NCBI GenBank assembly: GCA_031263605.1 | Contig: JAISFM010000134.1 | Location: 1-64,000, forward strand | Source: Clostridiales bacterium | GTDB taxonomy: Bacteria > Bacillota > Clostridia > Christensenellales > DUVY01 | Reading direction: 5' to 3' | DNA length: 64,000 nucleotides | Shown: positions 2,998 to 36,349 of the stretch, in pieces | Numbering within the stretch: position 1 is the first letter of the stretch | How the letters are laid out: every line of letters begins with the position of its first letter | Notes under the pieces: model-generated | The model's input: the letters and a program-made list of their open reading frames with translations, nothing else | Databases searched by the model: none | What the model was told of the DNA's origin: nothing | Translations under genes and position numbers: made by a program

Positions 2998-3000
2998 AAA

Positions 3001-3465: not shown

Positions 3466-3475
3466 ATGGGTATGC

Positions 3476-12638: not shown

Positions 12639-15587
12639 ATGAAAAAGAAATTTTTTGCGCTGGCGATTGCGGCGTTGATGTGTGTGAATTTGTTGGCGGC
12701 TTGCGGGACGCGGGTGGGGGGAGACGGATTAGCCGTTACGGACGGCGGCGGCTCGGTGCACGCGCCCGAAACGCCCGCGGTTGAAACGCCCGAATTGCCC
12801 GCGTTGAATCGGCCGTCCGCGCTCTATTACGACGCGGGTGCGAAAATTTTGTCGTGGGAAACGGTCGAGGGCGCGGCGAGCGGGTATTCCGTCCTCGTGA
12901 AACGGGGCGCGGCCGACGTTGTGGACGAAACGGCGGAGCGGGCGGAAACGGCTCTCGGCGGTTTGGAGGCCGGGGACTATTCGGCCGCCGTCAAGGCCAA
13001 GGCGGTCGCCAATTATTATCGGGAATCCGAAACGGCGGTTTACGCCTTTACGGTCGGCGGCGGCGCGACGGGCGTTCAGCCGACGCAAAAAACGCCGCAG
13101 CCCGAAACCTTTGCCTACGACGCGGACGCAGACCGGTTCTTTTGGTCGGACGCGGCGGGGGGCAACGGGTATGTTTTAGAGGTGTTCGACGCCGAAAACG
13201 TCCGCCGCCTTCGGTACGACGGCATCGAAAATTCCGCGAGCGCGGCGACGCTGGCGATCGGCGCGTATACCGCCGCGCTCACCGTGTCGGGCGACGGCGT
13301 CGAGTATGCGGACTCCGACGAAAAGACGGTTAGTTTCGCGATAGCGAGTTTCGGGGCGTTGCCCGCGCCGCAGAATTTGAGCGTCGCCGACGGCAATTTG
13401 ACCTGGGACGCGGTTCCGCACACGTCGGGCGCGGAGATCCGCGCGGTCGATTTGGCCGGCGGCGCGGCCGTGGCTGTGCAGCCGAAATTCTCCGCGCCCA
13501 ATCAATTGATTTTGGCCGATATGGGCGTGGACGCGGGCAGTTACAGAATTTACGCCGCGCTGACGTCCAACCGCCACGACGCGGCGAAAAGCGCGGAGTC
13601 GGACGCGCCCGTCAAATTGGAGCGCGCGGCCTCGTTCAACGCCTCGCAAATCGCCTCCTTTAACGGCAATTCGCCCCGCGGCGAACACGGCGCGGCGGGG
13701 CTTACGACGGTCAACGGCGTAACTTGCGCCGAAATCAGGCCGACGGCGGACGGCTGGGGGCGCGTCGCGAGCGCGGACTTTTCTCTGGACTTTTCCAAAA
13801 ATCCCGTGGCGTATATGGCGGTCGAAAGCGTCGGCGTGGGCGGGTACCATATGCAGGCCGTCGAGGGCGACCAGACCTATTTAGTCGTGCCCGATACCCA
13901 GAAAACCGGCGGCGCGGTCGTCGATTTGGCGCGGAAAACGGGGCTTTCGGGCTTTAAAACGGTTTATGTGCGGATCGGCGTCAACAACTCGACCAGCACG
14001 GACGCGAACGACGCGCGGGTGTATTACCGGGAAATCAAAATCCTGTATATCTCCCTCGTTACGCCCCCCGCGCCCTCTCAACTCGGCCCCGTGACCGGCC
14101 CGGCGGTCGATAACAGGGGGTCGGTTACGTGGACGCCGCCGGCCAACGCCGAATGGAACGCTTTCGGCGTTACCGTCGCGGACAAGGACGACCCGGAGGA
14201 TATTGTATTCGAGGGCGAGACGGGCGCGGCGGGTTTTCCCGCGTATACGCTGCCCGCGGGGATTTACAGGGCGGCGGTCACCGCCAAAAATACGGCTTGG
14301 GCGCAGGTCGGGGAGTCGGAGCCCGTGGAGTTTTTATTCAAGGTGACCGACATCGTCCGGTATCCCGCCGCGCAGATCGATACGGCGGCGGGCGCGTTCG
14401 AGACCGCGAAGGATATACAGGCCGCCTATCACGGGGAAAGCGGCCGCGCCGTGCTGAACAGCGCGGGCATATCGGATACCTATGGCTGGATACGCCCCAA
14501 AACAGGGGTTTCGGTCAATATGGACAAAAACCCCTTGGCGGTCGTTCATACGTCGGCCGCGTCGGGCGGGTATTTTATCAAATGCAGTTTCGACGGGTCG
14601 GGCGCGGCCGAGGACGTTTGCGGGGACGTGAAAAACAACAATTACAGCGAGCCGCGCGATTTGCTGTTCCGCTTGAACGCAAATTCGGCCGCGCAGGACG
14701 GCGGCGGCGTTACGTGGACGGGCATTAAAACCGATTATAAATTCATGCCGGGCGTGACCGCTCTCGCCGACAGCGGCAACGGCATGACGAGCACCGTGAC
14801 GGTCGCGGGCATCGATTTACTGTACGTCGAGGAGTACGAGGAAATCGACGCGCCGCCCGAGCCCGTCAAGTTGGATGCGCCCGCGGACTTCGAGATCGCC
14901 GGCGCGCTGCTGGCCGCCCGCCCCGTCGCGGGCAACGCCGCCTATACGCCGGTCTACGACGTAAACGTGACGCACGACGGCGGCGGGGGCGAGGCGGTTT
15001 ACTCGGGGACGGATTTGCCGTCGCCGCAGGTCAATTTGTCCGCTTTGGCGTTGGCCGTCGGGGAAACGTATACCGTTTCGATCGCCGCGAAGGGCGACGG
15101 CGTGTATTTCGCCGATTCCGACCCGGGGACGCGGCAGTTCATATACGCCTCGAAAGTGAGCGTAACCGACTTTTCCGCGGTAAGCGTCGCCCAACGGCAG
15201 GGCAATATAACGGTCGCGTCGAAGGGCGCGGACGGCCTATTGCTGTGGGTTGACGGGACGGCTTGGGGAATCGCCGCGGTCGCGCTGCCGGTTGCGGACG
15301 GCGCGCTTTCGGACAACTGCGCGCTGATCGTTGAGTTCGGCGCGGTGACGGCGGGCGCGAACCGCGCGTATCGGTACTACGTGGGCGCGAGCGGGACAGC
15401 CTTTACTTCGGATTTGGGCGGCGATCAGCCTGTGTCCGCGAATACCGCCTATGTTTACAGTTTGGCGGGCGCGGCGACGACGGGCGGCAACTTTTATTTG
15501 GGGCTGGGCTTCGGCGGCGGTTCGGCGACGCGGACGATGTTGGTCAAGTCCGTTCAAATTGTCGAATACGCGTTGGTAAGCGATTGA
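12639..15587 (+). CDS. Large modular surface lipoprotein with Fn3-like and recurrent GWG modules
   Basis: The 982-aa lipoprotein begins MKKKFFALAIAALMCVNLLA with lipobox LAAC (Cys22). No catalytic domain is recognised. Residues 45-330 hold three Fn3-like repeats of the form WETVEGAASGYSVLVK ... GDYSAAVKAK. Two copies of a beta-rich module (nt about 13630-14060 and 14345-14840) carry ADGWGRVA or DTYGWIRP, then KNPVAYM or KNPLAVVH, then GGYHM or GGYFI. The C-terminal third has a linker Fn3-like domain and a terminal module (from VSVTDFSAV) that closely parallel those of the 26208 protein. It is most simply a carbohydrate-binding or matrix protein. The ATG at 12639 follows a good ribosome site. 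Confidence 0.8.
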   Translation: MKKKFFALAIAALMCVNLLAACGTRVGGDGLAVTDGGGSVHAPETPAVETPELPALNRPSALYYDAGAKILSWETVEGAASGYSVLVKRGAADVVDETAERAETALGGLEAGDYSAAVKAKAVANYYRESETAVYAFTVGGGATGVQPTQKTPQPETFAYDADADRFFWSDAAGGNGYVLEVFDAENVRRLRYDGIENSASAATLAIGAYTAALTVSGDGVEYADSDEKTVSFAIASFGALPAPQNLSVADGNLTWDAVPHTSGAEIRAVDLAGGAAVAVQPKFSAPNQLILADMGVDAGSYRIYAALTSNRHDAAKSAESDAPVKLERAASFNASQIASFNGNSPRGEHGAAGLTTVNGVTCAEIRPTADGWGRVASADFSLDFSKNPVAYMAVESVGVGGYHMQAVEGDQTYLVVPDTQKTGGAVVDLARKTGLSGFKTVYVRIGVNNSTSTDANDARVYYREIKILYISLVTPPAPSQLGPVTGPAVDNRGSVTWTPPANAEWNAFGVTVADKDDPEDIVFEGETGAAGFPAYTLPAGIYRAAVTAKNTAWAQVGESEPVEFLFKVTDIVRYPAAQIDTAAGAFETAKDIQAAYHGESGRAVLNSAGISDTYGWIRPKTGVSVNMDKNPLAVVHTSAASGGYFIKCSFDGSGAAEDVCGDVKNNNYSEPRDLLFRLNANSAAQDGGGVTWTGIKTDYKFMPGVTALADSGNGMTSTVTVAGIDLLYVEEYEEIDAPPEPVKLDAPADFEIAGALLAARPVAGNAAYTPVYDVNVTHDGGGGEAVYSGTDLPSPQVNLSALALAVGETYTVSIAAKGDGVYFADSDPGTRQFIYASKVSVTDFSAVSVAQRQGNITVASKGADGLLLWVDGTAWGIAAVALPVADGALSDNCALIVEFGAVTAGANRAYRYYVGASGTAFTSDLGGDQPVSANTAYVYSLAGAATTGGNFYLGLGFGGGSATRTMLVKSVQIVEYALVSD

Positions 15588-16162: not shown

Positions 16163-19100
16163 ATGAAAACGATGAAAATGCGGGCGAACGGGAAAAAGGC
16201 GGCGGTTATTTTGGCCGTCGCGTTGGCAGTCGCGCTATGCGCGGCGGCGGTGCTGGCTTTTCCGCAGGGCGGGCGGGCGCGGGCGGCTGGGCAGTTGCAC
16301 AATCCGCGCGTGGCTGCGCTGCCGCTGCCCACGGCGGAGCAGTACGACGACGCTTGGGACTGGAAAACGACGGCCGAGAATTATTTGACCTACGTTTTCG
16401 ACGCGCGCAATACCTATGAGGACGACAACGGCGACCACGGCGGCTATATGCTGGCGACGCGCTCGCGCAAGATCGGCCGTTTCGTGCCCTCGCGCAATAT
16501 GGACGAGTATTTCGGCGACCCCGAAGGCACGAATCAAGCGTGGGGCTTGCCCGCGTATATCGGCTACCGAATCAGCGATATGGATTTGGGCGAGGGGATC
16601 ACCAATCTGGCCGCGATTGCCTCGGCCGCCCTCGTCGGCATCCCCAACCTGAACGCTTACCCCGTCTACGGCGGGGACGGGGCGCAGGACGGCACGTTTA
16701 ACTTCGTCAAGTCCGCCGTCGCGCACTATAACCGCTACGACCGCATCGTGTCCGACGGCGACGACTGGGGCGGGCGCAGCGGGCAGGACGAATTTTGGTA
16801 CGAGTTGCTGCCCAACGTGCTGTTCACCGTTTTGGCGAACGAGTACGGCGATATAGAAAAGACGGAGCGGGACGGCGCGGATTTTTATTACCTGCGCGAC
16901 ATTCTGACCGAGTCCGCACGCAACCGCCTGCGCGCCGTCGTCGGCATGGGGGGCGTCAACGCCGATTTCGACCATACGGGCTGGGACTTCAATCTGGACC
17001 TTGCCGTAGACCGGCAGCGGAACGCCGACAGCGCGGCGGGCTTCGCCTATATTCTGTATTCGGCCTACGCGATGAACCGTGCGCTGCCCGAAAACGAACG
17101 GCACGCGTCCGCGTCCGAAATCGAGCAGTTCCGATTGGGCGCGATTTGGAGCATGGACTATTTGGAGCGCATCGACTTTAACCCGTTTTACGAGGTGCTG
17201 GCGTTCCTCGCGCCCTACCTCGCCGCGCGCATGAACGCCGAACAGGGCACCGATTACAACGTCGCGAAAATGTTCGACTGGGGTTTTTCCGGCTCCGTCC
17301 CGCGCCCCAGCGCGGGGCTGGTCACGTCCAACTGGGGCGGCAAATATACCGCGGGCCTGATGGAGTTCCGCGACGGGTACGGATACGGGTTCGCGATGAA
17401 CACGTTCGACGCGATGCTGGGCCTCGCGCCGACGGTGCGGTACGACAACCGTTTCGCCGAGGACGTGGCCAAGTGGGCGTTGTGCGTCTCGCAAAGCGCG
17501 CAGATGTACTACCCGATCAAGAACGGGTTCGACGGCGAGGTCAACAATTACGGCGGCAAGGACGTTTACAACGGCTATAACCAGTCGGGCAAATGGATCG
17601 GCGCGGACAGCGAGCCGGACTATTGGACGGGCGTGGGCGGGGCGGCCGCCGAAGCGGGGAACAAGCCCAAAACGGCGGCGTTTATCCCCTATGAGGGCTT
17701 GCGCGAGCATCGGAAATACGTCACATATAACGGAAGCAACCGCGCCACGGCGTGGGATACCGGCCGCGGCCCCTATGCGAGCGGCGACGCGTATACCTAT
17801 AACTGGAACGGGCATACCGATTACGGCCTGTACGGCGGCGGCCACGTCGGCATTTTCGGCGCGGCGATCGGGAAAACCGACGTGCCGCGGATTTTGGAAA
17901 TCGACCTCGATAAGTTGGACGTGTACAACTTTTCAAAAACCGAGAGCGGCAAGGAAATCGGTTTTAAGATGTATTACAACCCCTATGGGGAGGATAAGGA
18001 GGTGACCGTCGGCGTCGCGGACGGCGGCAAATTGTACGACACGCTGGCCAAGGGGTACGTGGCGGCGGCGGCCGCGGGCGCGGGGCGGGTAAAATTTACG
18101 ATACCCGCCGGGGCGACGGTGGTGGCGGCGGAAATCCCGCAGGGCGAGGCGGTGACGGCGAGCGGCGGCGTTTATACCTGCGGCGGCGTGTTCCTCGCGC
18201 GGGAAAAGGGCGGCGCGTCCTTGGCGGTGTACGGCGCGGCGGCGGGCGGGGACGCGCTGGCATCCGGCGCGCAAGCGAGCGGCATGGTGTACGCCGAGAT
18301 CGGCGCGTCCGCGCCCGAGGGCGGCTCTGTCGAGGAAATCGCGCTGGACTTCGCGGGGACGCGGATTTGGTCGGGGGCTTCCGTCCCGTCGGGCAGGGTG
18401 GCAATCGACACGACGGCTTTGCGCAATATGTCGGGTATGCTGACCGTCTCCGTTATGTTTGCGGGCGGCACGAAGGAGAAAGCGGAAGTCGCCCTGAAAG
18501 TGGACAACCGCGCGCCGATTTACGACGCTTTGAATTATGCGGGCGACGCGGATACGGCCGCGAAATGGGCGGCCGCGACGGCGGCGTGGAACGCCGAGCA
18601 CCCCGAGAGCGAGCATTACGGCGGCATAGCGGCCGCGGGCGCGGAGGGGGACGGAATCAAAATATCCCTGCCGCAGACGCTGTCGGCGGGGCGCGATTAC
18701 GCATGGGCCTCGTCGGAACTGTTTACGCTGGACCTGTCGCGCGCGCCGAGTTTACGGATCAAAATCGGCGCGGCGACTTCAAAGTATTCGGTCAAACTCT
18801 ATTTGGAGGGCTTGAACAAAACGTCCGACGCGTGGACGGGCAAATATCTGGCGAGCAATACGTCGGGCGTTCTCGACAGAATCTACGCCTTTCCGCAGGA
18901 CTTGCCCGCCGACGTTAAAAACGACCCCGCGTTCGACGGTACGGGCGTGTACCGCGTGTCGGTCAAAATCACCGCCGTGGGCTCGGCCGGCGATTCCGTG
19001 ACGCTGGAAAAATTCGAGGCTTGGCACGGGTCGGACAAGCCGTCGTTGGAGGAGCCCGCGTCCTATGAGTGGGGCTTTAAGTTCCCGGCCGCCCGCGTCT

Positions 19101-21739
19101 ATAACTGGGACAACGCCGCCTTGAACGCCCCGTCCGTGACATACGAGAATGGGAACGCCGTTATCGCGGCCGAAAGCGGCGCGGCGGGCGCGGCGGGCAG
19201 CCCCTATATCGCCGCCGTGATCGGGCAGAACCCTATGATAGAAGTACGCCCGAAAGGCGCGTCCGGCGGCTGGTTCGTCGGCGTTCAAATCGAGGGCTAC
19301 GGCGACGTGTACTATTTGGAACGCGGTATAACGTCCGCGTCCCCGCTCGTCCTGTCGGTCGCGGACGCGATGAAAACGAAATACCCGGGTATTACGCTGA
19401 CGGCGAACGTCCGCATCCGCGTTCTGATCGGCGCGGAGGCCGGCGGGTCGGTGACCTTGGGCGCGGTCGATACCTATTACGGCCTGCCCGAATGGGGAAC
19501 GGCCGCGGCGGGGGCGCAAATCCTGAATTGGGAGGTTCAAACGGGGCTGGGCGCGCGCGCCGACGTCGAAACGGACGCGGGCGGGCGGGCGGTGATTCGG
19601 AACGCCGCGAGCGCGGACAACGAAACCGCCACGGCGGGGCGCAGGGGCGCGTTCACGGTCGATTTCGCGCGCGACCCTTATTTGGACATTACCGCGCGCG
19701 CCTGTACGGGCGAGTGGCGCGTCACGCTGACCCCCGTGGGCGGCGGGACGGCCTATGAGTTGATCGGGTGGAGCGGGAACGCGGGGCGCGAGCCCGCGAC
19801 CGCCTCCCTGCGGCAAAGGACGGGCGGGGCTCTCTCGGGCGAGCGGTCTGTGTATATCAACGTCGAAATACGCGGCGGCGGGAAATCCGTGACCGTGCAG
19901 GAAATCTCGACCTATTATAAGACGGCCGCGCTTCAATTCGGCAATACGTACACGGTCGAGACGGCGACGTGGGCGCCGGCGCAGAACGCCCCGGCGGTTG
20001 CCGTCGAGGGCGGCAAGGTCAAGGTGAGCGGACGGGGGCGGCAGGGCTTGGTTACGCCCGTTGTACGCGTCGAGGCGGGCACGACGCCCGTCGTCACTCT
20101 GACGGCGGACGGCTTCGGCGCGGATACGCTGGTTTATGCCGCGGCGCATATCGGCGGCGTCGCCTATGCGCTGACGGGGAACGGGCTGACGGCGGCGGGC
20201 GGCCGGGCGTTCGACCTGCGCGCTTTGACGGGCTTTTCGACGCGCGCGTTCGACGTGAGTTTCGAGATCGGCGGCGAGGGCGTGGGCGACGGCGGGGACT
20301 TCGAGTTTAACCTCGTGAGCGTTTCCTTTAAATACAGGCTCGGCGCGCCGCAAAACGTGGCGTTCGATGCGGAGGCAAACGCTTTTTCATGGGGCGCGGT
20401 CGCGGGCGCGGTTTCCTACGCCTTTGAAATCCGCACCGCCGCGGGCGCGTTTGTCAAGAGCGGCACGACCGCGCGCACGGAGTTGGCGTTGGGCGGCTTG
20501 CGGCTGGGCGCGGGGATTTACGCTTTCGAGGCGCGCGCGACGGGCTTGGGCTACGAGCCCTCGCTGTGGGTCGCGGCGGCGTTCAAGCAGGGCGACGTCG
20601 CGACGCTTACCCTGCCGAAGCCCGTTATCGGCGTCGGCGGGCTGGCCGTGGCGTGGAAGGCCGTCGCCAATGCCGAGGGCTATGCGTACGAGTTGTACGA
20701 CGCGGACGACGACCGGTTGGTAAAAAGCGGCGTTACGGCGGATACGGCGATCGATTTGGCCGCGCTCGGGAACCCCGCGTTCAATTATCGGGTCAGGGTC
20801 AAGGCGTTGGGCGACGGCGCGGTGTTTCTGGACAGCCCCGCCGCGGAATTTACGTTCCACACCGCCGAGGCCGCGCGCTGGACGGCGCAGGGCTTCGCGG
20901 CGATGACGCCGGGGCAGAACAACGCGCAGGCGGCCTACGACGCGGAAACGGGCGCGGCGGTGATTACCGTGCCCAACAGCGGCAACTGGGGCAACGCGCG
21001 GACGCTTGCGTTTGCGCTGGACTTCGATACCGACCCCGTTTTGGCCGTCAAGTTCGGGAGCGGCAGCGTCGGCGGCTATCACCTGTCTATCGCGATCGAC
21101 GGCGCGGTCTATAATTTATGCGACGACACCTTTGATTTCGGCGGCGGGACGCTGTACATGGACATAAACGCCGCGCTGGCGGTTCGCGACGGCCCGCCGC
21201 GCTTCGACGGCCCCGGCGCGCGGGTTACGGGCGTTCACACCGTGCAAATCCTGTTCGGCGTGACGATGGGCGAAAATTCGGGCTCGCCCGCGGTGCGGTT
21301 CAAGAGCGCGGCCGTGTACCAAGCCGCCGCCGGTTTGGGCGAGCGCGTCAAAGGGCAACTCGCCGCGCCGGACTTGAAAATCGAGGGCGGGAGCGTCCGG
21401 TGGGACCCTGTGGAAAACGCCGAAAGGTATATCGTCGTCGTCAGCAACGAGTTCGGGCCTTTCCCCGCGGCGGAGGTGGCGGGAACGTCCTACGGCCTCG
21501 CGTTCTTGCAGGTCAAGGGCGGGTATAGCGTACAGGTGACGGCGGTCGGCGAGGGGTATTACAACTCCGAGGCGGCGGCGCGCGCCTTTACGGTGTCCGA
21601 CGCGCCCGCGCAAAAGGCGACGGGCTGGGCGGCGGCGCGGGTACCGGTCATTACCGTCTGCGCCGTCGTCATGGCGGCCGCGGACGGGGCGGCGGTTGTT
21701 TTTGGGGTTCTTTATTTGAGAAAGAAAAAAAAGGCGTGA
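16163..21739 (+). CDS. Giant membrane-anchored surface protein (1858 aa), putative alpha-toroid catalytic region plus binding modules
   Basis: A signal peptide (core AAVILAVALAVALCAAAV) is followed by about 600 residues rich in aromatic and acidic positions: WDWKTTAENYLTYVFDARNT, NQAWGLPAYIGYRISD, GFAMNTFDAMLGLAPTVRYD and TDYGLYGGGHVGIFGAAIGK. The repeated helix-plus-Trp/Tyr style resembles alpha/alpha-toroid lyases or hydrolases, but I do not recognise a family and name no active site. From about residue 780 come several beta-rich modules of the recurrent type, best seen at NSGNWGNARTLAFALDFDTD (about 1613-1632). Between and after them are Fn3-like repeats (VAFDAEANAFSWGAVAGAVS). The protein ends with one membrane segment (about 1828-1852) and LRKKKKA. 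The start follows AAAAAAGGAGTTCAGGAAGA. Confidence 0.75.
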   Translation: MKTMKMRANGKKAAVILAVALAVALCAAAVLAFPQGGRARAAGQLHNPRVAALPLPTAEQYDDAWDWKTTAENYLTYVFDARNTYEDDNGDHGGYMLATRSRKIGRFVPSRNMDEYFGDPEGTNQAWGLPAYIGYRISDMDLGEGITNLAAIASAALVGIPNLNAYPVYGGDGAQDGTFNFVKSAVAHYNRYDRIVSDGDDWGGRSGQDEFWYELLPNVLFTVLANEYGDIEKTERDGADFYYLRDILTESARNRLRAVVGMGGVNADFDHTGWDFNLDLAVDRQRNADSAAGFAYILYSAYAMNRALPENERHASASEIEQFRLGAIWSMDYLERIDFNPFYEVLAFLAPYLAARMNAEQGTDYNVAKMFDWGFSGSVPRPSAGLVTSNWGGKYTAGLMEFRDGYGYGFAMNTFDAMLGLAPTVRYDNRFAEDVAKWALCVSQSAQMYYPIKNGFDGEVNNYGGKDVYNGYNQSGKWIGADSEPDYWTGVGGAAAEAGNKPKTAAFIPYEGLREHRKYVTYNGSNRATAWDTGRGPYASGDAYTYNWNGHTDYGLYGGGHVGIFGAAIGKTDVPRILEIDLDKLDVYNFSKTESGKEIGFKMYYNPYGEDKEVTVGVADGGKLYDTLAKGYVAAAAAGAGRVKFTIPAGATVVAAEIPQGEAVTASGGVYTCGGVFLAREKGGASLAVYGAAAGGDALASGAQASGMVYAEIGASAPEGGSVEEIALDFAGTRIWSGASVPSGRVAIDTTALRNMSGMLTVSVMFAGGTKEKAEVALKVDNRAPIYDALNYAGDADTAAKWAAATAAWNAEHPESEHYGGIAAAGAEGDGIKISLPQTLSAGRDYAWASSELFTLDLSRAPSLRIKIGAATSKYSVKLYLEGLNKTSDAWTGKYLASNTSGVLDRIYAFPQDLPADVKNDPAFDGTGVYRVSVKITAVGSAGDSVTLEKFEAWHGSDKPSLEEPASYEWGFKFPAARVYNWDNAALNAPSVTYENGNAVIAAESGAAGAAGSPYIAAVIGQNPMIEVRPKGASGGWFVGVQIEGYGDVYYLERGITSASPLVLSVADAMKTKYPGITLTANVRIRVLIGAEAGGSVTLGAVDTYYGLPEWGTAAAGAQILNWEVQTGLGARADVETDAGGRAVIRNAASADNETATAGRRGAFTVDFARDPYLDITARACTGEWRVTLTPVGGGTAYELIGWSGNAGREPATASLRQRTGGALSGERSVYINVEIRGGGKSVTVQEISTYYKTAALQFGNTYTVETATWAPAQNAPAVAVEGGKVKVSGRGRQGLVTPVVRVEAGTTPVVTLTADGFGADTLVYAAAHIGGVAYALTGNGLTAAGGRAFDLRALTGFSTRAFDVSFEIGGEGVGDGGDFEFNLVSVSFKYRLGAPQNVAFDAEANAFSWGAVAGAVSYAFEIRTAAGAFVKSGTTARTELALGGLRLGAGIYAFEARATGLGYEPSLWVAAAFKQGDVATLTLPKPVIGVGGLAVAWKAVANAEGYAYELYDADDDRLVKSGVTADTAIDLAALGNPAFNYRVRVKALGDGAVFLDSPAAEFTFHTAEAARWTAQGFAAMTPGQNNAQAAYDAETGAAVITVPNSGNWGNARTLAFALDFDTDPVLAVKFGSGSVGGYHLSIAIDGAVYNLCDDTFDFGGGTLYMDINAALAVRDGPPRFDGPGARVTGVHTVQILFGVTMGENSGSPAVRFKSAAVYQAAAGLGERVKGQLAAPDLKIEGGSVRWDPVENAERYIVVVSNEFGPFPAAEVAGTSYGLAFLQVKGGYSVQVTAVGEGYYNSEAAARAFTVSDAPAQKATGWAAARVPVITVCAVVMAAADGAAVVFGVLYLRKKKKA

Positions 21740-22028: not shown

Positions 22029-22922
22029 ATGGAAAACGTTGAAAACCCGAAACAGCGCAACCTGTATTTCGAGTCGGACAGCCACAAAATCGGCCGCGTC
22101 CTGTGGGTCTATCCGCGCTTTTTGAACGTCGGGAAACAGGAAAGCGACATCAAATACGACTATAAAGCGCATATACAGGACGAATACGAGTTCATCTATA
22201 TGCTGTCCGGCAGCGTGGAGTACCGCTGCGGCGGCAGCGAACGGTTCCGCGCGAACGCGGGCGACATGTATTTTGTCCGCCCCGGGCAGTTGCACGAGGA
22301 GCATTCCCTCGTCGAGCCGGTCGCCTTTATCTATTTGAAATTTTTCCTCTACGACTACAAGGGCAACCGCATGGACGACTTTGTGCAGGACCCCCGCTTG
22401 CAACTCTTTACCGAACCGTCGCCCTCCATCGGCGAGGCGTTCAAGCGGGCGTTCCGCGAAATGTCCGACAAGAAAACCGGCTTTAAACAGATCATCGACA
22501 ACGGCATCATGGAATTGCTGATCTATGTCATTCGGGAGCGGCAGTTGACCAACACCAAAAATACGGACAATTCCTCGATCAACAGCGTCATCTCCATGAT
22601 TTTAGAGGACATCACCGTCAACGTCGGCGCTAACTATTCCGTGGAGGGCATAGCCGACCAATACGGCATTTCCAAAAGCACCCTGCACCATTCTTTTAAG
22701 GCCGTGACGGGCTTGCCGTTTAAGGAATACGTCAACCGCATGAAGGTGCAGGAGGCCGAATACCACCTGGCGACTTCGGACAGGAGCGTGCAGTTCATAT
22801 CGGAGGAGTTGGGCTTTTCCAACGCGTACTATTTCTCCGCGCTGTTCAAAAAGCGGACGGGGCATACGCCCACGGCTTACCGCAAACTGATGTCCGAGAA
22901 GCGCGCGGGCGCGTCGGCGTAG
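22029..22922 (+). CDS. AraC-family transcriptional regulator with cupin sensor domain
   Basis: The 297-aa product has the two-domain layout of AraC/XylS regulators. Residues 1-150 form a cupin-like ligand-binding domain (YKAHIQDEYEFIYMLSGSVE, GDMYFVRPGQLHEEHSL). Residues about 188-290 contain two helix-turn-helix motifs: YSVEGIADQYGISKSTLHHS, then VQFISEELGFSNAYYFSALF and KKRTGHTPTAYRK. The PxxYR ending and LGFSNAYYFSALFKKRTG are the family signature. The ribosome site is GGAAAAGGATTG, seven to eight bases before ATG 22029. In this setting it is the best candidate to activate the transporter and surface genes in response to an intracellular sugar. Its targets cannot be read from the sequence. 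Confidence 0.93.
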   Translation: MENVENPKQRNLYFESDSHKIGRVLWVYPRFLNVGKQESDIKYDYKAHIQDEYEFIYMLSGSVEYRCGGSERFRANAGDMYFVRPGQLHEEHSLVEPVAFIYLKFFLYDYKGNRMDDFVQDPRLQLFTEPSPSIGEAFKRAFREMSDKKTGFKQIIDNGIMELLIYVIRERQLTNTKNTDNSSINSVISMILEDITVNVGANYSVEGIADQYGISKSTLHHSFKAVTGLPFKEYVNRMKVQEAEYHLATSDRSVQFISEELGFSNAYYFSALFKKRTGHTPTAYRKLMSEKRAGASA

Positions 22923-22989
22923 AGGGGGAGGGAGAGGTTTCGTAACAACTCTACTGCACGTTTTTAACAGTTCTTTGCAGGCGCGCATA

Positions 22990-23018: not shown

Positions 23019-23077
23019 AGATACGCGAACAGCGAATGGTCTGTAAACGGACACGCGGATTTGAAAAGGAGCGGCAT

Positions 23078-24990: not shown

Positions 24991-25226
24991 AAAGCGCGGG
25001 GCGTTCCGGTGGTTGGTAGAGATTGCCGCGTCGCGCTGTGCGCTCCTCGCAATGACGGGCCGTGTTTATGGGCAGTGCGGTGGCGCATTCGCAACAGGCC
25101 TCATAAATGCGGGAGATTTCTCGGCTTCGCTCAGATCATGACAGGCGCGCGTTTCTAACCGTAAAGCCGTACACCGCAAAAACAACTTGTAACCAAATCT
25201 AAAAAATAAAAAAGGAGACTATCATC
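24991..25226. repeat. Spacer with one dispersed repeat
   Basis: It contains a GATTGCCGCG/CTCCTCGCAATGAC copy (about 25018-25057) and a GGGAGATTTCTCGGCTTCG copy (about 25110), then the AAAAGGAGACTATCATC ribosome site of the next gene. Confidence 0.6.
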
Positions 25227-26207: not shown

Positions 26208-29000
26208 ATGAAAAGTTTATCCATCATGAAAGGCCGCAAATATCTTGCCTTGGGCGTTGCGTTGGTTTTTATGCTCGCGGGCGGCGGGCTTTTGCGGGCG
26301 TTCGCCGCTTGGGTCGCCCCGCGCAGCGTGCTGAATCACTCGATCGGCACGGGGACATACGGCTCCTATCAATTAAATGATACGGGCGAGGTAACGCTGG
26401 GGCTTGACGGGCGGCTCGTTTGGGACGCCGTTACGACGAAGGCGGGCGGCGTGGGCGCGGACGGTTACGAGGTAACGGTACATAACGACGACGACGGCGC
26501 GGAGACGGGCGGCGACATTGTGGAAACCGTCGCGGGCGCGGCCTATGAGCCGTATGCCTTGCCGGACGGCACCTATACCGCCACGGTCAAAGCCGCGCAT
26601 ACAAGCCCGTGGGTGGAGGATTCCGCCGTCGTTTCCGCGCCGATCAATTTCAAGGTCGAGCATATCGCAAGTTATACGGCGGCGGACATCGATACAACAA
26701 GCGGCAAATTCGAAACGGGGCAGGAGGGCTTGACGGCGGCTTATAACGGCGAAACGGGCTTGACCAAACTCAACGCGGGGAACAACGCGGGCTGGGGCTC
26801 GATTCAGACGAAAGCGGAGGCCGCCATACCCGCGCTGAATATGAGCAAAAACCCGCTTGTCGTCCTGCATACCGAGGGCGCGGACGGCGGCTATTATTTC
26901 AACTTCAAATACGACGGGTTGAGCGGCTATCAGCCCGCGCTCGGCGATACCTATACGGGTAGCGTTTGGCAGGGCAGCCGCACTGCGGTAATCAACGCCA
27001 ACCGAATCGTGAGCGATCCGAACCCGTTGACTGTGCCGGTTACAAATTTTCATTTCCAACTCGGCGCGACAGCGCGGGTCAGCAACAACATCTACAATGG
27101 GAACAACGTAATTTCGTATGTGTATTTAAGCGGAATCGACGTCGTATATATCAATCTCTATACGCCGCCGCCCGCCGCCGTAAAACTCGACGCGCCGACG
27201 CTGAACAAGTCGGGCGCGGCGGTACTCGTCGCGCCGCCCGAAAACAAATATATCGACGCGGACATTGTGTACGATATAACCGTTACGGACGACAGCACAA
27301 CGGCGGAAGTCGTTTCCTATGAGGACACAACGGCTACGACGGTCAATTTGGCGGCTCTGCCGCTTGTTTCGGGCAAAACGTATACGGTTTCCGTTACGGC
27401 TAAACCCGTGGACGGGCAGGATTACCATACCGAGTCCGACCCCGCAGAGTTGCGGTTTGGATATACCGAAAAATGCGTGATTACGGACTTTACGAGCATT
27501 GCGTACTCGCGGCGCGACGGCGGCGGAATATTTGCATCGGTTGACGAGAAAGGTATAACATACTATTGCGGGAACGGCGGTTATATAGTGGGAGCGTTGC
27601 ATATCGACGTGACGGGCATAGAGTTGACGGCCGATTCGGCGGTCATTCATAAATTAAGCGAGGTCGTTCTCGCTAACGGCGCGACGCAAGCGCGGTATAT
27701 TCATGGCTTTATAAAGGACACGGGGGGCGCGAGGGATGCCGTCGAAATGCCCGTATCGCCCGGGGAAATTATCGCGGATCCGGTGTTCGCGCCGAATACC
27801 GCCAACTTCCAAGGGACATATGTTATCAACAATATGCTGTACGTAGCGTCCGGAATGGGCGGCGACGCTTACGACCGCGCTATCATTCTCGAAAGCCTCG
27901 CAATCGCCGATTACGCGCTGCTGCCGAACGGCTTGACCGTAAGCCCGGCAAGCGCGGAGTTCGATAAGAACGCGCCGGAGGATTTAGAGTTTACGCTGGC
28001 GTTCACGCATGGGGCGGCGGCGCAAAAGGTCTCGAACGGGGCGGCCGTACTGAACGCGGGTACGGACTACGTCGTGGACGGCGACGCGCTGACGCTGAAA
28101 AAAGAGTATATGGCGACGCTGCCTTTCGGCTTGAATACCGTGCGGGTCACCGATACGCGGGGCTATGCGGCCGACATCGCTTTGACCGTGACCACGTCCG
28201 CGGAGTCCGAGCAGTTCGACGCGCCGATTGCGCAATTTGACAGTGCAGACGGCACGTTTAAATGGAGCGCGGTGGACGACGCTTTTAGCGGGTACGAGAT
28301 AGAGGCCTATTTGTTGAGCGATTGGGGCGACGATTTGAGCGAGGCCACGCCCGTTAAAACCGCCGATACAAAGGCCAACGCGAACGGAACGCCGTTTAAC
28401 GCGACTTCGTGGGTCGTTGCCGCCGATAATTTGACTACGGGCAAGTATGCGGCGCGGGTACGCGCGGCGGAGGTTTTACCCGCCTATACCGCGTCCGAAT
28501 GGTCGGATTTCGTATATCTCGATATTACGCGGGACGTATTTTGGGACGCGCAGGAAATTCCCACCGTATTCGACGGGGCCGTCGGGGGTTACAATACAGA
28601 AACGGGCGCGCAACATGCGGCGGCAACCTACGATTCGGAGAGCGGAGTTGTGCGGATTGCGCCTTCCCGAGACGGTTGGGGGATTCTTGCTTCGCCGCAA
28701 ATTACACTCGATATAAACGCAAGTTTGTATGTCGGCTATCATGCGGTCGAGGTTGTTTCCGGCGCAAATTGGAGCGACAATGTGTTTACCACATGGAGCA
28801 ATTACTTTGGCAACAAGATCCAAAACGCGGAACCCATCCCCAAATCTTTGTGTGGGACGCAGTGGGATGCGGGCGTACAGGGGAACGGACAGACGGTCAG
28901 AGTATGTATCCTTGTACAGGGAGCCAATAATGCAGGGTACACGGCTTTCCGCGGCATGGGCGTTTACCATATTACCGAGTATACGGCGCAACAGGTTTAA
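26208..29000 (+). CDS. Large secreted modular protein with X2 domain and recurrent GWG modules
   Basis: The 930-aa product starts at ATG 26208, six bases after GGGAGGT; the open frame upstream runs through repeats and is rejected. The signal segment YLALGVALVFMLAGGGLLRA ends before AWVAPR, without a lipobox. One recurrent module (nt about 26650-27155: NNAGWGSIQT, KNPLVVLHTEGADGGYYFNF) is followed by an Fn3-like linker and a module starting CVITDFTSIAYSRRDGG, matching the C-terminal order of the 12639 lipoprotein. An X2 domain (LTVSPASAEFDKNAPEDLEF, LKKEYMATLPFGLNTVRV) follows, then another Fn3-like domain and a final recurrent module (nt about 28515-28990: SRDGWGILASPQITLDINAS). There is no catalytic motif. 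It is probably a surface glycan-binding or scaffold protein. Confidence 0.78.
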   Translation: MKSLSIMKGRKYLALGVALVFMLAGGGLLRAFAAWVAPRSVLNHSIGTGTYGSYQLNDTGEVTLGLDGRLVWDAVTTKAGGVGADGYEVTVHNDDDGAETGGDIVETVAGAAYEPYALPDGTYTATVKAAHTSPWVEDSAVVSAPINFKVEHIASYTAADIDTTSGKFETGQEGLTAAYNGETGLTKLNAGNNAGWGSIQTKAEAAIPALNMSKNPLVVLHTEGADGGYYFNFKYDGLSGYQPALGDTYTGSVWQGSRTAVINANRIVSDPNPLTVPVTNFHFQLGATARVSNNIYNGNNVISYVYLSGIDVVYINLYTPPPAAVKLDAPTLNKSGAAVLVAPPENKYIDADIVYDITVTDDSTTAEVVSYEDTTATTVNLAALPLVSGKTYTVSVTAKPVDGQDYHTESDPAELRFGYTEKCVITDFTSIAYSRRDGGGIFASVDEKGITYYCGNGGYIVGALHIDVTGIELTADSAVIHKLSEVVLANGATQARYIHGFIKDTGGARDAVEMPVSPGEIIADPVFAPNTANFQGTYVINNMLYVASGMGGDAYDRAIILESLAIADYALLPNGLTVSPASAEFDKNAPEDLEFTLAFTHGAAAQKVSNGAAVLNAGTDYVVDGDALTLKKEYMATLPFGLNTVRVTDTRGYAADIALTVTTSAESEQFDAPIAQFDSADGTFKWSAVDDAFSGYEIEAYLLSDWGDDLSEATPVKTADTKANANGTPFNATSWVVAADNLTTGKYAARVRAAEVLPAYTASEWSDFVYLDITRDVFWDAQEIPTVFDGAVGGYNTETGAQHAAATYDSESGVVRIAPSRDGWGILASPQITLDINASLYVGYHAVEVVSGANWSDNVFTTWSNYFGNKIQNAEPIPKSLCGTQWDAGVQGNGQTVRVCILVQGANNAGYTAFRGMGVYHITEYTAQQV

Positions 29001-29370
29001 TGCGCGAAACGCGGCTTTATTGGTAGAGATTGCCGCATCGCGCTTCACGCTCCTCGCAATGACCAGGCCGTGTTTTATGAGCAATGCGGTGGTGCATTCG
29101 CAATCGGAATGAGAGAGAGGAAAGCGCGCGGGGCGTCCTGTGGTTGGTAGAGATTGCCGCGTCGCGCTTTGCGCTCCTCGCAATGACCGGCGGCAACGCC
29201 GCTTGTCTACTCCCCGCAATGACAGGTCTTGCCGTGTTTTATGGGCAGTGCGGTGGTGCATGGGATTGCGCAATCGGTGGGAGATTTCTCGGCTTCGCTC
29301 GAAATAACAGGGTGTGCGCATAACGGCACTATCCGGAAACAATTCCAGAATAACGGGAGGACGGCGCGGA
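29001..29370. repeat. 370-bp spacer of dispersed repeats
   Basis: It has two GATTGCCGC/CTCCTCGCAATGAC copies (about 29027-29063 and 29152-29188), a short CCGCAATGACAGG copy, and one GGGAGATTTCTCGGCTTCG copy near 29279. The ribosome site GGGAGG is ten bases before the next ATG. No gene is seen. Confidence 0.6.
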
Positions 29371-32025
29371 ATGATTTTGGCGCGGAAACTAAAAAAGATT
29401 TTTGCGGTGTTGTTCGCCGCGTGCTTGTGCGCGGCGGCCGCTTGCGCCGCTCCGGTTGCGGGGACGGACGGGGGCGGGGGCGCGCCCGTTGTTGCGACGT
29501 TGGCGGCCGGCGACGGGGCGTTCGAGTACGGCATCGATTTGGCCTACGGGCGGTGGGCGGCGGCCAGCGGCTGGCAGTCGGGCAGCAACCTGTACCCCGA
29601 AAAAGCAACCGACGGCGACACGGAAACGCGGTGGGGCGACGGGAACAACGCCGACGGCTGGATCTATGTCGATTTGGGCGCGCGCGAGAAAATCAAAAAG
29701 GTACGTTTGAAATGGGAAGCGAGCCACGCCACGCGGTACCTCGTGCAGGTCGGGAACGACCCGTCCGCGTGGACGACCGTCGTCACGGTGGACAACGCCT
29801 CGGCGGCGCAAAGCGAATGGCAATATCAGACTATCGTGTTCGACGCGGTAACCGAGGCGCAGTTTGTCAAAATCCAAGTCGCGTCTAAATCGCATACCAA
29901 TTACGGCGTGTCTATACACGACTTCGAGGTGTACGGTCCGAAAAACCCGACGGCGGCGACGGCCGTCGCCTCGTCGGCGGCGCGGGGCGTTTCGTTTTCG
30001 GCCGATAAAGCGACGGACGGCGACGCGAAGTCCTTTTTCGGCGCGGCGTTCAACGGAAATATGACGGCGGGCGCCGCGCCCTATATCTATACCGACGACG
30101 AGGCTTACCTTATCGCCGACCTCGGCGCGGAGCGGGAAATCGACGACATCAAAATCCGCTGGGGGCTGTGCTTCGCGCGTAAATACGAGGTCTTTGTTTC
30201 CGCGGGCGAGGCGGCGCGGGACGGGGGCGGCTGGAAGTCGGTCTATAAAACGGAGGCGTCCCTCGGCGAGGTCGAGGACCTGCCGATCGAGCGTCAAGTT
30301 GTCCGTTATATCAAAGTTGAACTGATTCAGCGCGAGGTCAACGAGCGGTACAAGGGCAATCCGGACGGTCGGGGCGGCGGGTATTTGGCCGACCACCGCG
30401 AGATGAAATTGTTCCCATGGAAAACGGGGTACGAAATCCGGTCGTTGGAGGCGTGGGATTGGGCGGCGGTTGCGGCCGTGCCCGTCGGGCGGACGATGGA
30501 ATTTGCAAAGGACGCGCCCGCTTGGACGCATATGAGCAATATCGCCCTCAACCCCGAGGGTTTGGTTTTGGCTCCCGTGGGCTATCCGACGCAAGCGAAG
30601 GGCTTGGGCGAGGCCGACTTCAACAATAAAAACGTGCCGGGGTTCGAGTCCTACGCGACCTATAATCCGGCGGTCATCGTGGACGATACGGGCGTGTTCC
30701 GCATGATATACCGCGCCGAACTGCCCTATAATCTGGACGATTACCACGGGGGGAGCGGGCGGCCGGCCTACGCGCACGTGTCCACGCTCGCCTATGCGTA
30801 CAGCGCGGACGGCGTGCATTTTACGCGGGGCGGCGATAGGCCCGTGGTCACGCCCAACATTCCGGCCGCGCGGTGGGGCGGCACCGAGGACCCGCGCATG
30901 TTCCGCGTGCGCGACGCGGCGGGCGCGCCGACCTATTACATCACCTTTACGATGTACGACGGCTCCAACGTCCGCGAGGGCATGGTCAAGACGGCCGACT
31001 TCGAGACGTACGGCGACATCATCGTTTTCGCGGGGACGGCGACGGGCATGAAAAGCGGCACCTTTGTGGTCGACCCGCAGGGCGACGCGGTGTTGATAGA
31101 CGACCCGCGCCCCGGCAAATCCGGCAAGGTCTATGTTTGTATTATGAAAGACGGCGGCGCGTGCTTTATCGGCTTTACCAAAAACGTGGAGTCGATCGCC
31201 CCGTCCGACATCGTCCGGTTGGACGGCGACGACGCGAACAGCATCGAGAAAAACGGCGGCTTGGACAGTTCCGCCAATATGGAGAGAGTGACGAGGGACA
31301 ACGAGTCGTGCGTCGCCCTGACCAATATTTACGGTCCCGACGACAAGGACATCGTCCTTATGTACGGCGGCACGCGGCTGAGCGACGGCGATTTGCAGTA
31401 CCGGCAGGACGGCGTTTCGGGCGGGTGGTTTTACGGCTTGGGGCTGGCGCGGATTTCCAAGGCTAATCCGTTCGAGTTGCTGCACCCGAATAAGCGCGAT
31501 TTGTTCGAGCCGTTCATGTACCCGACCGACACCAATAAAATCGACAGCGCGCTGTTCGTCAAGTGCATGTTCGCCGATACGATGATCCGGCACAAGGACA
31601 AATGGTATTTTTACTACGGCGCGGGGGATATGTACGTAGGCCTTGCCACGTCCAACGCCTCTTTCAGCGCGGCCGCGTCCGATTATACCGCGTCGGGCGG
31701 GACGGTGACGGCCTCCGTCTTGGCGCAAAACCGCCGTTACGACGGCGACAAGTCCGATATGCGCGTCCGATACGTTTACGAGGTCTACGGCGTGGACGGC
31801 GCGTTGCTGGACGAGGGCGGGGACTTTTTCGACATCGGGCATTTCACGCATGCGGCGGACGGAATCTATTCGCGCGGCCAATCGATCTCCATCGATATAC
31901 CCGCGCCGCAAGCCGCGCCGTATTATGTCGCGACGTATTTAACGGATATGAACGGCAAACTTCTGAACCAAAAGTCGTATTACGCGGCCATGGGCGGCGC
32001 AACGTCGTTCGGGGCGTGGAGTTAA
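29371..32025 (+). CDS. Secreted GH130 enzyme with two N-terminal F5/8C (CBM32-like) domains
   Basis: The 884-aa product starts at ATG 29371, ten bases after GGGAGG. The signal peptide ends in AAAAC (possible lipid Cys25). Residues 55-190 and 195-360 are two discoidin-like sugar-binding domains: LYPEKATDGDTETRWGDGNN, IYVDLGAREKIKKVRLKW, FSADKATDGDAKSFFG and LIADLGAEREIDDIKIRWG. Residues about 375-760 are a GH130 propeller with YNPAVIVDDTGVFRMIYRAE (431-450) and GGTEDPRMFRVRD (503-515; proposed general acid Asp507). The last 100 residues are a beta domain. GH130 enzymes act on beta-mannosides; extracellular ones are likely hydrolases because free phosphate is scarce outside the cell (inference). 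It is followed by the GLUG protein after 13 bases, so the two form an operon. Confidence 0.87.
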   Translation: MILARKLKKIFAVLFAACLCAAAACAAPVAGTDGGGGAPVVATLAAGDGAFEYGIDLAYGRWAAASGWQSGSNLYPEKATDGDTETRWGDGNNADGWIYVDLGAREKIKKVRLKWEASHATRYLVQVGNDPSAWTTVVTVDNASAAQSEWQYQTIVFDAVTEAQFVKIQVASKSHTNYGVSIHDFEVYGPKNPTAATAVASSAARGVSFSADKATDGDAKSFFGAAFNGNMTAGAAPYIYTDDEAYLIADLGAEREIDDIKIRWGLCFARKYEVFVSAGEAARDGGGWKSVYKTEASLGEVEDLPIERQVVRYIKVELIQREVNERYKGNPDGRGGGYLADHREMKLFPWKTGYEIRSLEAWDWAAVAAVPVGRTMEFAKDAPAWTHMSNIALNPEGLVLAPVGYPTQAKGLGEADFNNKNVPGFESYATYNPAVIVDDTGVFRMIYRAELPYNLDDYHGGSGRPAYAHVSTLAYAYSADGVHFTRGGDRPVVTPNIPAARWGGTEDPRMFRVRDAAGAPTYYITFTMYDGSNVREGMVKTADFETYGDIIVFAGTATGMKSGTFVVDPQGDAVLIDDPRPGKSGKVYVCIMKDGGACFIGFTKNVESIAPSDIVRLDGDDANSIEKNGGLDSSANMERVTRDNESCVALTNIYGPDDKDIVLMYGGTRLSDGDLQYRQDGVSGGWFYGLGLARISKANPFELLHPNKRDLFEPFMYPTDTNKIDSALFVKCMFADTMIRHKDKWYFYYGAGDMYVGLATSNASFSAAASDYTASGGTVTASVLAQNRRYDGDKSDMRVRYVYEVYGVDGALLDEGGDFFDIGHFTHAADGIYSRGQSISIDIPAPQAAPYYVATYLTDMNGKLLNQKSYYAAMGGATSFGAWS

Positions 32026-32038
32026 GGAGGGCGGGCGC

Positions 32039-33922: not shown

Positions 33923-34267
33923 GGAGCGGCCGCTCCCGAAAAACGGGAGTGTGCAAACCGCGTTGCTCATAAACAACGGCAAGTCTGATGACGGCGGGCA
34001 GCGCGTTCGGAATGAGAGAGTAAAGCGCGGGGCTTTCCTCTGTTCGGTAGAGATTGCCGCGTCGCGCTTCCGCGCTCCTCGCAACAAGTCTAATGACAAC
34101 AGGGGCGTTTCGCCTCGAAAAGACACGCAAGGCCGCCGCAAGTTAATTTCGCAACAAGTCTAATGACCGCATATTCATTTCGCTGCAAGTCTAATGACCG
34201 GCAGCAACGCTGTTTGGACACTTCCCGAAAATTTCTAAAACCCGAAAAAACCCGTAAAGAGGTTCGT
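33923..34267. repeat. 345-bp spacer with MITE right-arm fragment and solo scars
   Basis: A GATTGCCGCG/CGCTCCTCGCAACAAGTC copy ends in a CGCAACAAGTCTAATGAC scar (34080-34097). Next is a right-arm fragment of the MITE-like element (about 34112-34167: CGAAAAGACACGCAAGGCCG ... TTCGCAACAAGTCTA), which ends with a second such sequence (34150-34167). A CTGCAAGTCTAATGACC variant lies near 34182. The ribosome site GTAAAGAGG precedes the next gene. Confidence 0.7.
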
Positions 34268-36349
34268 ATGAAAAGAAAGAAATTTTTACCGATACTCGCG
34301 CTGATCCTTGTGTGGGCGGCGGCGGCCGCGCTCGCGGCGTGCTCCCCGCGCGAGGAGATCGATTACCGCGAGGAAACCGTCGCGCGGACGCCGCTCGCCG
34401 CGCCCGAAAACGCGCGTATGGACGGCGAGGCCTTGAAATGGGAGGCCGTCGAAAACGCGGCGGGCTATACGGTCGCCTACCTCTGCGAGGAGGAGGAAAA
34501 CCCCGCCGCCGTCGAGGTTTCGGCGGGCGGCACGGAATACGCTTTTTCTTTGAGCGAGCCGGGCGTGTATTCGGCGAGGGTGCGCGCGACGGCCGCCGCC
34601 GACAGTTTTTATTCCCGCTCGCCGTGGTCGGATTGGATTCCGTTCCGCTATGTCGGCGCGTTCAGGCTGCCCGCGCCCGCGAATTTAACCTATGAGGGCG
34701 ACACGGTTTCGTGGCCGGCCGTCGAGAACGCGGCCGTTTACGAAGTCCGCGTAAACGCCGCCGCCGCCGTCCGCGTTTCGGCGACCGAGTACACCGTCCC
34801 CGCCGCCGCGCCGGGCGCGGACTATGCCGTCGAGGTGCGCGCGGTGTCCGAGGACAGTTTGTATTACGGCGATTCGGAGTGGGCGTCCCTGACCTTCCGC
34901 TTCACCGTGGCCTATGCCGCGCCCGCCAATTTGCGCGTCGGCGGCGACGGCTTTGCCCGTTGGGACGAAACGGAGTATTTGACGGAGGGCTATACCGCGT
35001 CGGTTCGGCAGTTGCCGGACGGCGCGCCCGCGACGGGCGCGGCGGAGGCGGCCCTGTACGACGTGACCCTTTTGCCGACCGGCGACTATGCGCTGAAAGT
35101 CATGGTCAACGGGGGCGCGGACGGCGTGACCGCTTCGTCCTATACCGAGGAAATCAAATTCCGCGTTACCCAATTCAGGTCGTGGGACGCCGCCGGCATC
35201 GTGTCCGAGTTTACGTCGTGGAACAAATGCACCGCGGCGGCGGTCGGGGATTACGCGAGTTTGCGCTGCGAGGAGGGTTGGGGCGGGCTTGTGTCGCCCG
35301 CGCTCACGGTCAATTACGAGTTGCGTCCGGTACTCGTTACCGAATACCTGTCGGTGCCGTTCGGCTATATGGGCAACTTCTATTTGGGGGGCGGGCTGTA
35401 TATTTACGCGCCCGATATTCGCGGCCCGTTCGGCGCGCTGTCCGTCCACTCCGATATGGCGCGCTATATGGACGGCGCGATTCCCTCCGCCACGGGGGTC
35501 GTTTCGGGCGTGAGTTTTTCCATCGGCTTTACGTACGCGCCCGTGGGCGCGCCCACGCGCGAGGTCGCGCAGGTCAAAAATGTGCGCATCGTGTACGTGA
35601 CGGAAATCCCCGAAATCCCCGACGAGTTGCAGGATCTTTCCGCGCCGTCGGATTTGCAGTTCAACGGGTTGAATTTGTCCTGGCGCGCCTCGCCCGGCAA
35701 CGCCGCGTATACGCCGACCTATACCCTCGAAATTCTGAAACATAACGGCACGGATTATGTGACGGCGGAGACACTGAACGCCTATCCGTACACGTCCTAT
35801 AACCTCGGCGATTTGCCCGGCTTTTCGCCGGGGCGGTATTCGTTCCGCGTGACGGCCGACGGGGACGGCGCGTACTTCTCGGATTCGCAGTCCGCGCGGG
35901 CGGCCAATATGAACGTGGCGGTGACGGCCTTGGATTTAGCAACCATCGCGGCGAGCGCGGCCAACGGGATAGGCGTAGCCGTTCCGAACAGGGTTTTTGA
36001 GGACGGGAAGTTAAAATTGACCCTCGCGTCCGGCTACGGGACGATCAAATATACCGCGCCGACGGCTATCGACGTGCGGAACTCGTATTTGACGATAGAC
36101 TTCGACTCGATAACCGGCGGGAATTACTATATACGGCTGCCGGAGGCGGGCGGCAACGCGGGCAACGTCAACACCATCGTGTCGGGTGACAGCAGCGTGA
36201 CGGGGCCGTGCAACTGGAAATTGACGGACGTGCCCGCGCTTGCCGACGCGACGGGGACGAAATCGTTCGATCTGCATTTGGGGATCAGCGGCAGCAACAT
36301 GACCTGCTACATCTCGAAAATCGCGTTCGTCACGGTCGCGCCCGCCTGA
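34268..36349 (+). CDS. Surface lipoprotein with Fn3-like and recurrent GWG modules
   Basis: The 693-aa lipoprotein has lipobox LAAC (Cys25). The ATG at 34268, behind GTAAAGAGGTTCGT, is preferred to an upstream in-frame ATG that lies in repeat DNA. Residues 40-300 carry Fn3-like repeats (LKWEAVENAAGYTVAYLCEE, VSWPAVENAAVYEVRV, WDETEYLTEGYTASVRQL). A recurrent module (nt about 35195-35610) shows CEEGWGGLVSPALTVNYELR and GYMGNFYLGGGLYIY. Then come the Fn3-like linker APSDLQFNGLNLSWRASPGN and a terminal beta domain. The order linker plus terminal domain is the same as in the 12639 and 26208 proteins, making three paralogues. No catalytic motif is seen; a role in glycan binding at the cell surface is inferred. 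Confidence 0.76.
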   Translation: MKRKKFLPILALILVWAAAAALAACSPREEIDYREETVARTPLAAPENARMDGEALKWEAVENAAGYTVAYLCEEEENPAAVEVSAGGTEYAFSLSEPGVYSARVRATAAADSFYSRSPWSDWIPFRYVGAFRLPAPANLTYEGDTVSWPAVENAAVYEVRVNAAAAVRVSATEYTVPAAAPGADYAVEVRAVSEDSLYYGDSEWASLTFRFTVAYAAPANLRVGGDGFARWDETEYLTEGYTASVRQLPDGAPATGAAEAALYDVTLLPTGDYALKVMVNGGADGVTASSYTEEIKFRVTQFRSWDAAGIVSEFTSWNKCTAAAVGDYASLRCEEGWGGLVSPALTVNYELRPVLVTEYLSVPFGYMGNFYLGGGLYIYAPDIRGPFGALSVHSDMARYMDGAIPSATGVVSGVSFSIGFTYAPVGAPTREVAQVKNVRIVYVTEIPEIPDELQDLSAPSDLQFNGLNLSWRASPGNAAYTPTYTLEILKHNGTDYVTAETLNAYPYTSYNLGDLPGFSPGRYSFRVTADGDGAYFSDSQSARAANMNVAVTALDLATIAASAANGIGVAVPNRVFEDGKLKLTLASGYGTIKYTAPTAIDVRNSYLTIDFDSITGGNYYIRLPEAGGNAGNVNTIVSGDSSVTGPCNWKLTDVPALADATGTKSFDLHLGISGSNMTCYISKIAFVTVAPA

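Follow-up and report, generated by a model that had tools for sequence, protein, structure and literature searches.

Phosphorylases acting on beta-1,2-mannosides are known. Like the locus analyzed here, the Thermoanaerobacter cluster containing Teth514_1788 and Teth514_1789 combines GH130 enzymes with an ABC importer (PMC4264767). In Leishmania, the beta-1,2-mannan mannogen is the substrate of GT108 phosphorylases, to which a protein of our locus is related, but there mannogen serves the cell as an energy store inside it (PMC8950772). The accessible parts of these two papers name no protein like the GWG module described below, no helical-barrel protein and no surface lipoproteins. GH130 proteins that remove beta-1,2-mannosides, a further likeness to our locus, are also found in the yeast-mannan loci of Bacteroides (e.g. 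BT3780, in which Lys199 is the residue for beta-1,2 specificity), but these loci are directed at alpha-mannan with beta-1,2 caps (PMC4599007), whereas no alpha-mannan enzyme was recognized in our stretch of DNA, and an ABC importer is present. Finally, CBM112, an internal beta-mannan-binding module of Bacteroides GH26, is a recently named family that, like the GWG module, occurs mostly in mannan loci; according to the accessible part of its description (PMC13357471), it differs in belonging to Bacteroidota, in being inserted in the GH26 catalytic domain and in being specific for plant beta-mannan, which sets it apart from the GWG module. A search of a partial open-access library of the literature yielded no secreted or endo-acting beta-1,2-mannan enzyme and no module binding this polymer; because the library is partial, CAZy may already hold such a family. 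The locus supplies a candidate for each, that is, for a secreted enzyme breaking beta-1,2-mannan and for a polymer-binding module.

The window, i.e. the whole stretch of 64,000 nucleotides that was analyzed, is a contig sequence of a 2.75-Mb draft genome that is 73% complete. Genes are named after the position at which their reading frame opens, and those relevant here are:

3626-4630, plus strand: GH130 protein, closest to Lin0857 and Uhgb_MS
5376-6305, plus strand: permease 1 of an ABC sugar importer
7289-8191, plus strand: permease 2 of the ABC sugar importer
8528-10258, plus strand: putative solute-binding lipoprotein of the importer, without Pfam match (role suggested by its conserved position in the locus)
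10470-11990, plus strand: RCC1-repeat protein with a C-terminal hydrophobic segment, conserved in the locus
12639-15587, plus strand: module lipoprotein with lipobox LLAAC, part of the core of the conserved locus
16163-21739, plus strand: 1858-aa module protein with a C-terminal hydrophobic anchor and basic tail
22029-22922, plus strand: AraC-type regulator
23036-24058, plus strand: DUF1861 protein, relative of the Leishmania GT108 beta-1,2-mannan phosphorylases
26085-29000, plus strand: secreted module protein, which also contains CBM_X2 (27939-28163)
29314-32025, plus strand: secreted, distantly GH130-like protein with F5/8C domains, distantly resembling beta-1,2-mannosidases
34163-36349, plus strand: module lipoprotein with Fn3 repeats, likely start at 34268

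The product of gene 3626 matches the GH130 family of Pfam (PF04041, E 2e-54), and its closest relatives are Lin0857 (5e-98) and Uhgb_MS (2e-93), which places it, by sequence, in the beta-1,2 type of GH130. Lin0857 of Listeria is a beta-1,2-mannobiose phosphorylase. The DUF1861 protein encoded by gene 23036 is homologous to GT108, as it aligns with Leishmania MPT-2 over 294 residues (E 4.5e-48). It has an aspartate at the site of the MPT-2 D94N substitution, reading NLQDP where MPT-2 has NLEDP and the D94N chain NLENP.

Recurrent GWG modules

The original prediction had claimed at least nine copies of a recurrent segment in four surface proteins: two in gene 12639, about five, partly degenerate, in gene 16163, two in a gene starting at 26208 and one in a gene starting at 34268. 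Profiles built from orthologues of one position only detected ten copies, distributed as predicted (2, 5, 2 and 1), of which A to D are the degenerate ones. The six best copies lie within about 25 bases of the limits drawn by eye. The gene placed at 26208 has a reading frame that opens at 26085. The ten copies are:

13626-14069, plus strand: copy L1, gene 12639 (profile; AlphaFold model with pLDDT 96.8)
14352-14846, plus strand: copy L2, gene 12639 (profile)
18530-19042, plus strand: copy A, degenerate, gene 16163 (profile, E 7.4e-11)
19064-19537, plus strand: copy B, degenerate, gene 16163 (profile, E 7.3e-7)
19538-19987, plus strand: copy C, degenerate, gene 16163 (hhalign to B, 8e-12)
19988-20407, plus strand: copy D, degenerate, gene 16163 (hhalign to C, 2e-10)
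20870-21334, plus strand: copy E, gene 16163 (profile)
26664-27170, plus strand: copy 1 of gene 26085, L2-like (profile, tree)
28533-28994, plus strand: copy 2 of gene 26085 (profile)
35174-35617, plus strand: module of gene 34163 (profile)

A profile of the six best copies, which had been proposed as a check, gave 167-203 bits at those six places, scores that are circular because the same six copies built the profile. Single-sequence phmmer searches agree with it, linking copy 2 of gene 12639 to copy 1 of gene 26085 (E 3.5e-22) and copy 1 of gene 12639 to copy E of gene 16163 (6e-8), and so do the orthologue-only profiles. For this non-circular test, eight positions were defined in the two core proteins (genes 12639 and 16163), each was represented by a profile from 9-11 genomes, the profiles were run against 21 proteins of the window, and pairs of positions were compared by hhalign. 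Seven of the eight positions, five in gene 16163 and two in gene 12639, form one family together with the copies in genes 26085 and 34163, while the position at the C-terminus of gene 12639 falls outside it. The hhalign E-values were 4e-19 for copy E against L1, 1e-12 to 1e-7 among copies A to D, and 4e-4 for the weakest pair (D against L2). Cross-copy profile matches mostly scored 11-84 bits, with a few weak pairs below 11 bits. The top domain score among 800 locally shuffled proteins was 5.6 bits, and chance or composition was therefore rejected as the source of the likeness. Across an alignment of 38 copies, the conserved columns are W/Y44-G45, P60, G73-Y74, D90, G109 and G118, numbered according to the L1 model.

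The copies have clear boundaries and lie beside a glycosidase-like domain of putative activity. They had been described as joined by Fn3-like linkers, which holds for some copies only: such domains flank several of them, but copies A to D adjoin directly without an Fn3 linker, and Pfam fn3 exceeds its cut-off only in gene 34163.

The outlying position at the C-terminus of gene 12639 is a second repeated module, present twice:

15144-15584, plus strand: second repeated module, gene 12639
27462-27929, plus strand: second repeated module, gene 26085

The two match each other with E 2.3e-19 and, in profile comparisons, do not match the GWG module; a weak further match lies at about 35993-36340. 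The small secreted proteins encoded by genes 24196 and 25227 (24196-25751) both contain a similar AFxVxDLxPYDQPE segment, and their orthologues are found in one other module genome (L046), downstream of the enzyme. A SipW-type signal was suspected in genes 25227 and 26085; no NCBIfam model matched.

Predicted folds and family assignment

No family of Pfam or NCBIfam covers the GWG module, in line with the original prediction, which had recognized no named family. In a Pfam scan of the 38 copies, matches were scattered and below threshold, with one copy each for CBM_11 (E 0.0011), CBM_6 (0.02) and Mann_GBD (0.05). Identity with a known Pfam CBM was therefore discarded, the best candidate being the CBM_11 match in 1 of 38 copies. 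Fibronectin type III was rejected as well, since the fn3 matches lie outside the modules and none is among the matches of the copies. A search with the 38-copy profile found no PDB chain at E <= 5, and thus no solved relative by sequence.

AlphaFold2 modelled copy L1, with a 38-row alignment, as an all-beta sandwich (pLDDT 96.8, pTM 0.89); L1 is the one copy modelled, and the others are expected to share its fold because of their profile homology. Foldseek matched the L1 model to PDB structures of CBM86, CBM6, CBM22, CBM27 (mannan), CBM35, CBM36, CBM11, CBM4, CBM15 and the beta-sandwich parts of glycosidases, and also to non-lectin beta sandwiches such as the Eph receptor and Cry toxin domains. 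These matches were mostly at TM 0.45-0.61 and E 1e-4 to 1e-3, with about 10% identity, and therefore point to the CBM fold class without a match at the family level. In a viral structure library the matches were mostly phage tail and fibre proteins, which is uninformative. Like the beta-sandwich CBMs (CBM86, 6, 22, 27, 35, 36, 11 and 4), the GWG module is predicted to be an all-beta sandwich of similar size within multidomain secreted glycan-acting proteins; it differs from them in having no profile match to them and in that its binding is a prediction. By its modelled fold, the GWG module looks like a new sugar-binding module of a family unclassified in Pfam and NCBIfam.

The 1858-aa protein begins with a second domain without family:

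16283-18232, plus strand: putative catalytic domain without Pfam family, residues 41-690 of gene 16163, predicted to consist of a helical barrel and a beta domain

Neither this domain nor its counterpart in ten homologues scanned is covered by a Pfam family, apart from a sub-threshold match and added domains, and no solved relative was found by sequence. In the AlphaFold model (pLDDT 89.1, pTM 0.92), the helical part comes first and a beta domain after it. The acidic residues E144, E344, E511, D542 and D586 of the 1858-aa protein are invariant. The best structural matches in the PDB are GH127 and rhamnosidases, at TM 0.27-0.36 and E 1e-4 to 1e-3. At these TM values, membership of the GH127/GH78-like (alpha/alpha) glycosidases by structural match of the whole domain was rejected. 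At most, the model would place the domain in the broad class of helical-barrel glycosidases, as a shared fold class only.

Conserved locus and history of the copies

Among about 400 genomes of the order, comprising relatives and an even sample, the GWG module was found in five besides that of the window, and in all five it lies within the same conserved locus. Samples of the phylum (399 genomes) and class (341 genomes) added no further convincing module genome. An early draft of the profile had also given three matches in a different family within the phylum (L039-L041); these were set aside, as they covered only about 38 positions of a frame of 185-189 aa.

Along the locus, the GH130 gene is followed by two permease genes and then by those for the solute-binding protein, the RCC1 protein, the module lipoprotein and the module enzyme; an AraC regulator comes next in some loci, and the series ends with DUF1861. 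An overlap filter used in this survey hid some reading frames, for example the GT108 gene of G176, which directly follows the enzyme. The RCC1-repeat protein with its C-terminal hydrophobic segment is conserved in L045-L052 and L055. Pumilibacter intestinalis CLA-AA-M10 (Clostridia in the NCBI taxonomy) has the same locus. Several contig titles name an animal gut source (roe deer, reindeer); others carry no statement. Within the order, GT108 (DUF1861) is rare, being present in 9 of 396 genomes, and it is present in five of the six module genomes (Fisher p 9e-9, a guide only, because the genomes are not independent). The sixth is 62% complete, and in it the contig breaks off within the enzyme gene.

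When GTDB genome contigs were scanned with the enzyme domain, 33 loci were recovered. The ten close ones all contain modules, and five of them are genomes already found by the module search (L046, L047, L048, L052 and L054). Taking contig titles as written, homologues of the enzyme domain occur in Bacteroidota, Acidobacteriota, Armatimonadota, Planctomycetota, Kiritimatiellota, Verrucomicrobiota and two archaeal MAGs. By raw count, 13 of the 23 distant loci have a GH130 gene within 10 kb (in Bacteroidota, Acidobacteriota, Armatimonadota and Planctomycetota), and ten of these 13 neighbours match the GH130 of the window with E below 1e-80. Two genomes of the same order, G001 and G033, gave no module match; their enzyme copies, of about 680-730 aa and without modules, are adjacent to GT108 or close to it.

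In a FastTree phylogeny, the copies at any one of the seven core positions group with their orthologues in other genomes (clade support 0.96-1.0), and the L2 clade also takes in two 26085-type copies, one from the window and one from L046. The duplications therefore predate the spread of the locus through several families. The original prediction had the module amplified inside this locus as a carbohydrate-binding or matrix module; the tree contradicts an amplification in this genome and indicates that it is old, while the carbohydrate-binding part agrees with the CBM-type predicted fold and the glycan-utilization surroundings.

Proposed role and competing readings

That the modules are homologous, that L1 is predicted to fold as a beta sandwich, that the gene neighbourhood is conserved and that the neighbouring genes belong to the families given above are results of this analysis. 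From these we infer what the modules bind, that they bind at all and that the enzyme domain cuts the ligand. On balance we lean towards the reading that the GWG module, with its predicted beta-sandwich fold, is a carbohydrate-binding module of an unclassified family, belonging to a locus with which the cell would take up a beta-1,2-mannoside polymer and break it down by phosphorolysis. Modules on the lipoprotein, the anchored 1858-aa protein and the two accessory proteins would retain the polymer on the surface of the cell, the N-terminal helical-barrel domain of the 1858-aa protein would cut it, the ABC importer would, from the gene content, carry oligosaccharides in, and the GH130 protein and the GT108 relative would, from the function of their families, release mannose-1-phosphate in the cell. 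Most likely, then, the modules keep a beta-1,2-mannoside polymer attached to the cell so that the enzyme domain of gene 16163 can act on it. We favour sugar binding because the all-beta fold is confidently predicted and the PDB matches are largely CBMs of several families, and beta-1,2-mannosides because the module locus contains a beta-1,2-type GH130 and a GT108 relative, GT108 is enriched in module genomes, and the enzyme domain lies near GH130 or GT108 elsewhere. Counting against this reading are the moderate structural matches, which include non-lectin sandwiches, and locus L055, which has modules but yielded no GH130 and no GT108 gene within 10 kb.

The downstream genes also count against it. 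The region 36900-62499 encodes two esterases of the SASA type, a CE2-like one with kinship to the glucomannan deacetylase AxeC2 (below cut-off), a sulfatase, GH2 and GH43, a set that could point to an acetylated plant glycan. The sugar bound by the module might then be a different one, for instance acetylated beta-1,4-glucomannan or a mixed hemicellulose of plants, and the beta-1,2-mannoside genes would serve only for side chains or for an additional substrate. In line with this, SASA and CE2-like genes accompany gene 34163 in two further genomes, and one copy touches CBM_11 (E 0.001) and one Mann_GBD (0.05). We consider this unlikely, given that the core carrying the modules in most genomes includes a beta-1,2-type GH130 and a GT108 relative, and the esterases are absent from most loci in the stretch examined.

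Beta-sandwich modules also serve as spacers, and the GWG modules might be non-binding structural elements that keep the enzyme off the cell wall, as the head-to-tail, degenerate copies A to D, the Fn3-like domains joined to other copies and the existence of module-less enzymes of about 680 aa would allow. The aromatic and polar columns W44, Y74 and D90 are nevertheless conserved in 38 copies and in several families of bacteria, although a mere spacer would scarcely require them except for its fold, and modules also fill a separate lipoprotein (gene 12639) that lacks a recognized enzyme domain, so a spacer role seems quite improbable. Least probable to us is that the copies belong to a family already described (Fn3 or CBM6/35/11/27) and have diverged so far that the profile libraries miss them: the general fold is indeed shared with CBM11, CBM27 and CBM35, but the absence of PDB chains matching the profile, the low identity of the Foldseek matches and the failure of every copy to reach a Pfam cut-off all speak against it.

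Returning to the beta-1,2-mannoside reading, since the GWG module travels with genes for beta-1,2-mannose chains, the module and its attached enzyme can be tested on one named candidate sugar class, and an enzyme domain without Pfam family, present in several bacterial phyla and two archaeal MAGs, gains a functional hypothesis. A bolder version, which we put forward tentatively and would sooner doubt than accept, is that the locus is dedicated to extracellular use of beta-1,2-mannan (e.g. fungal or protozoan) by gut Clostridia, that the N-terminal domain of gene 16163 founds a new helical-barrel family cutting this polymer, and that GWG is the first family of modules binding it.

Farther downstream in the window, a glycyl-radical enzyme and its activase are encoded at 57683-60760. 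On another contig of the same genome (C17, L093), genes 2822-6085 and 6089-9235 on the minus strand encode two multi-domain proteins with segments remotely like the GWG module (E 8e-7 to 4e-3), which adjoin an ABC permease and a solute-binding-like protein.
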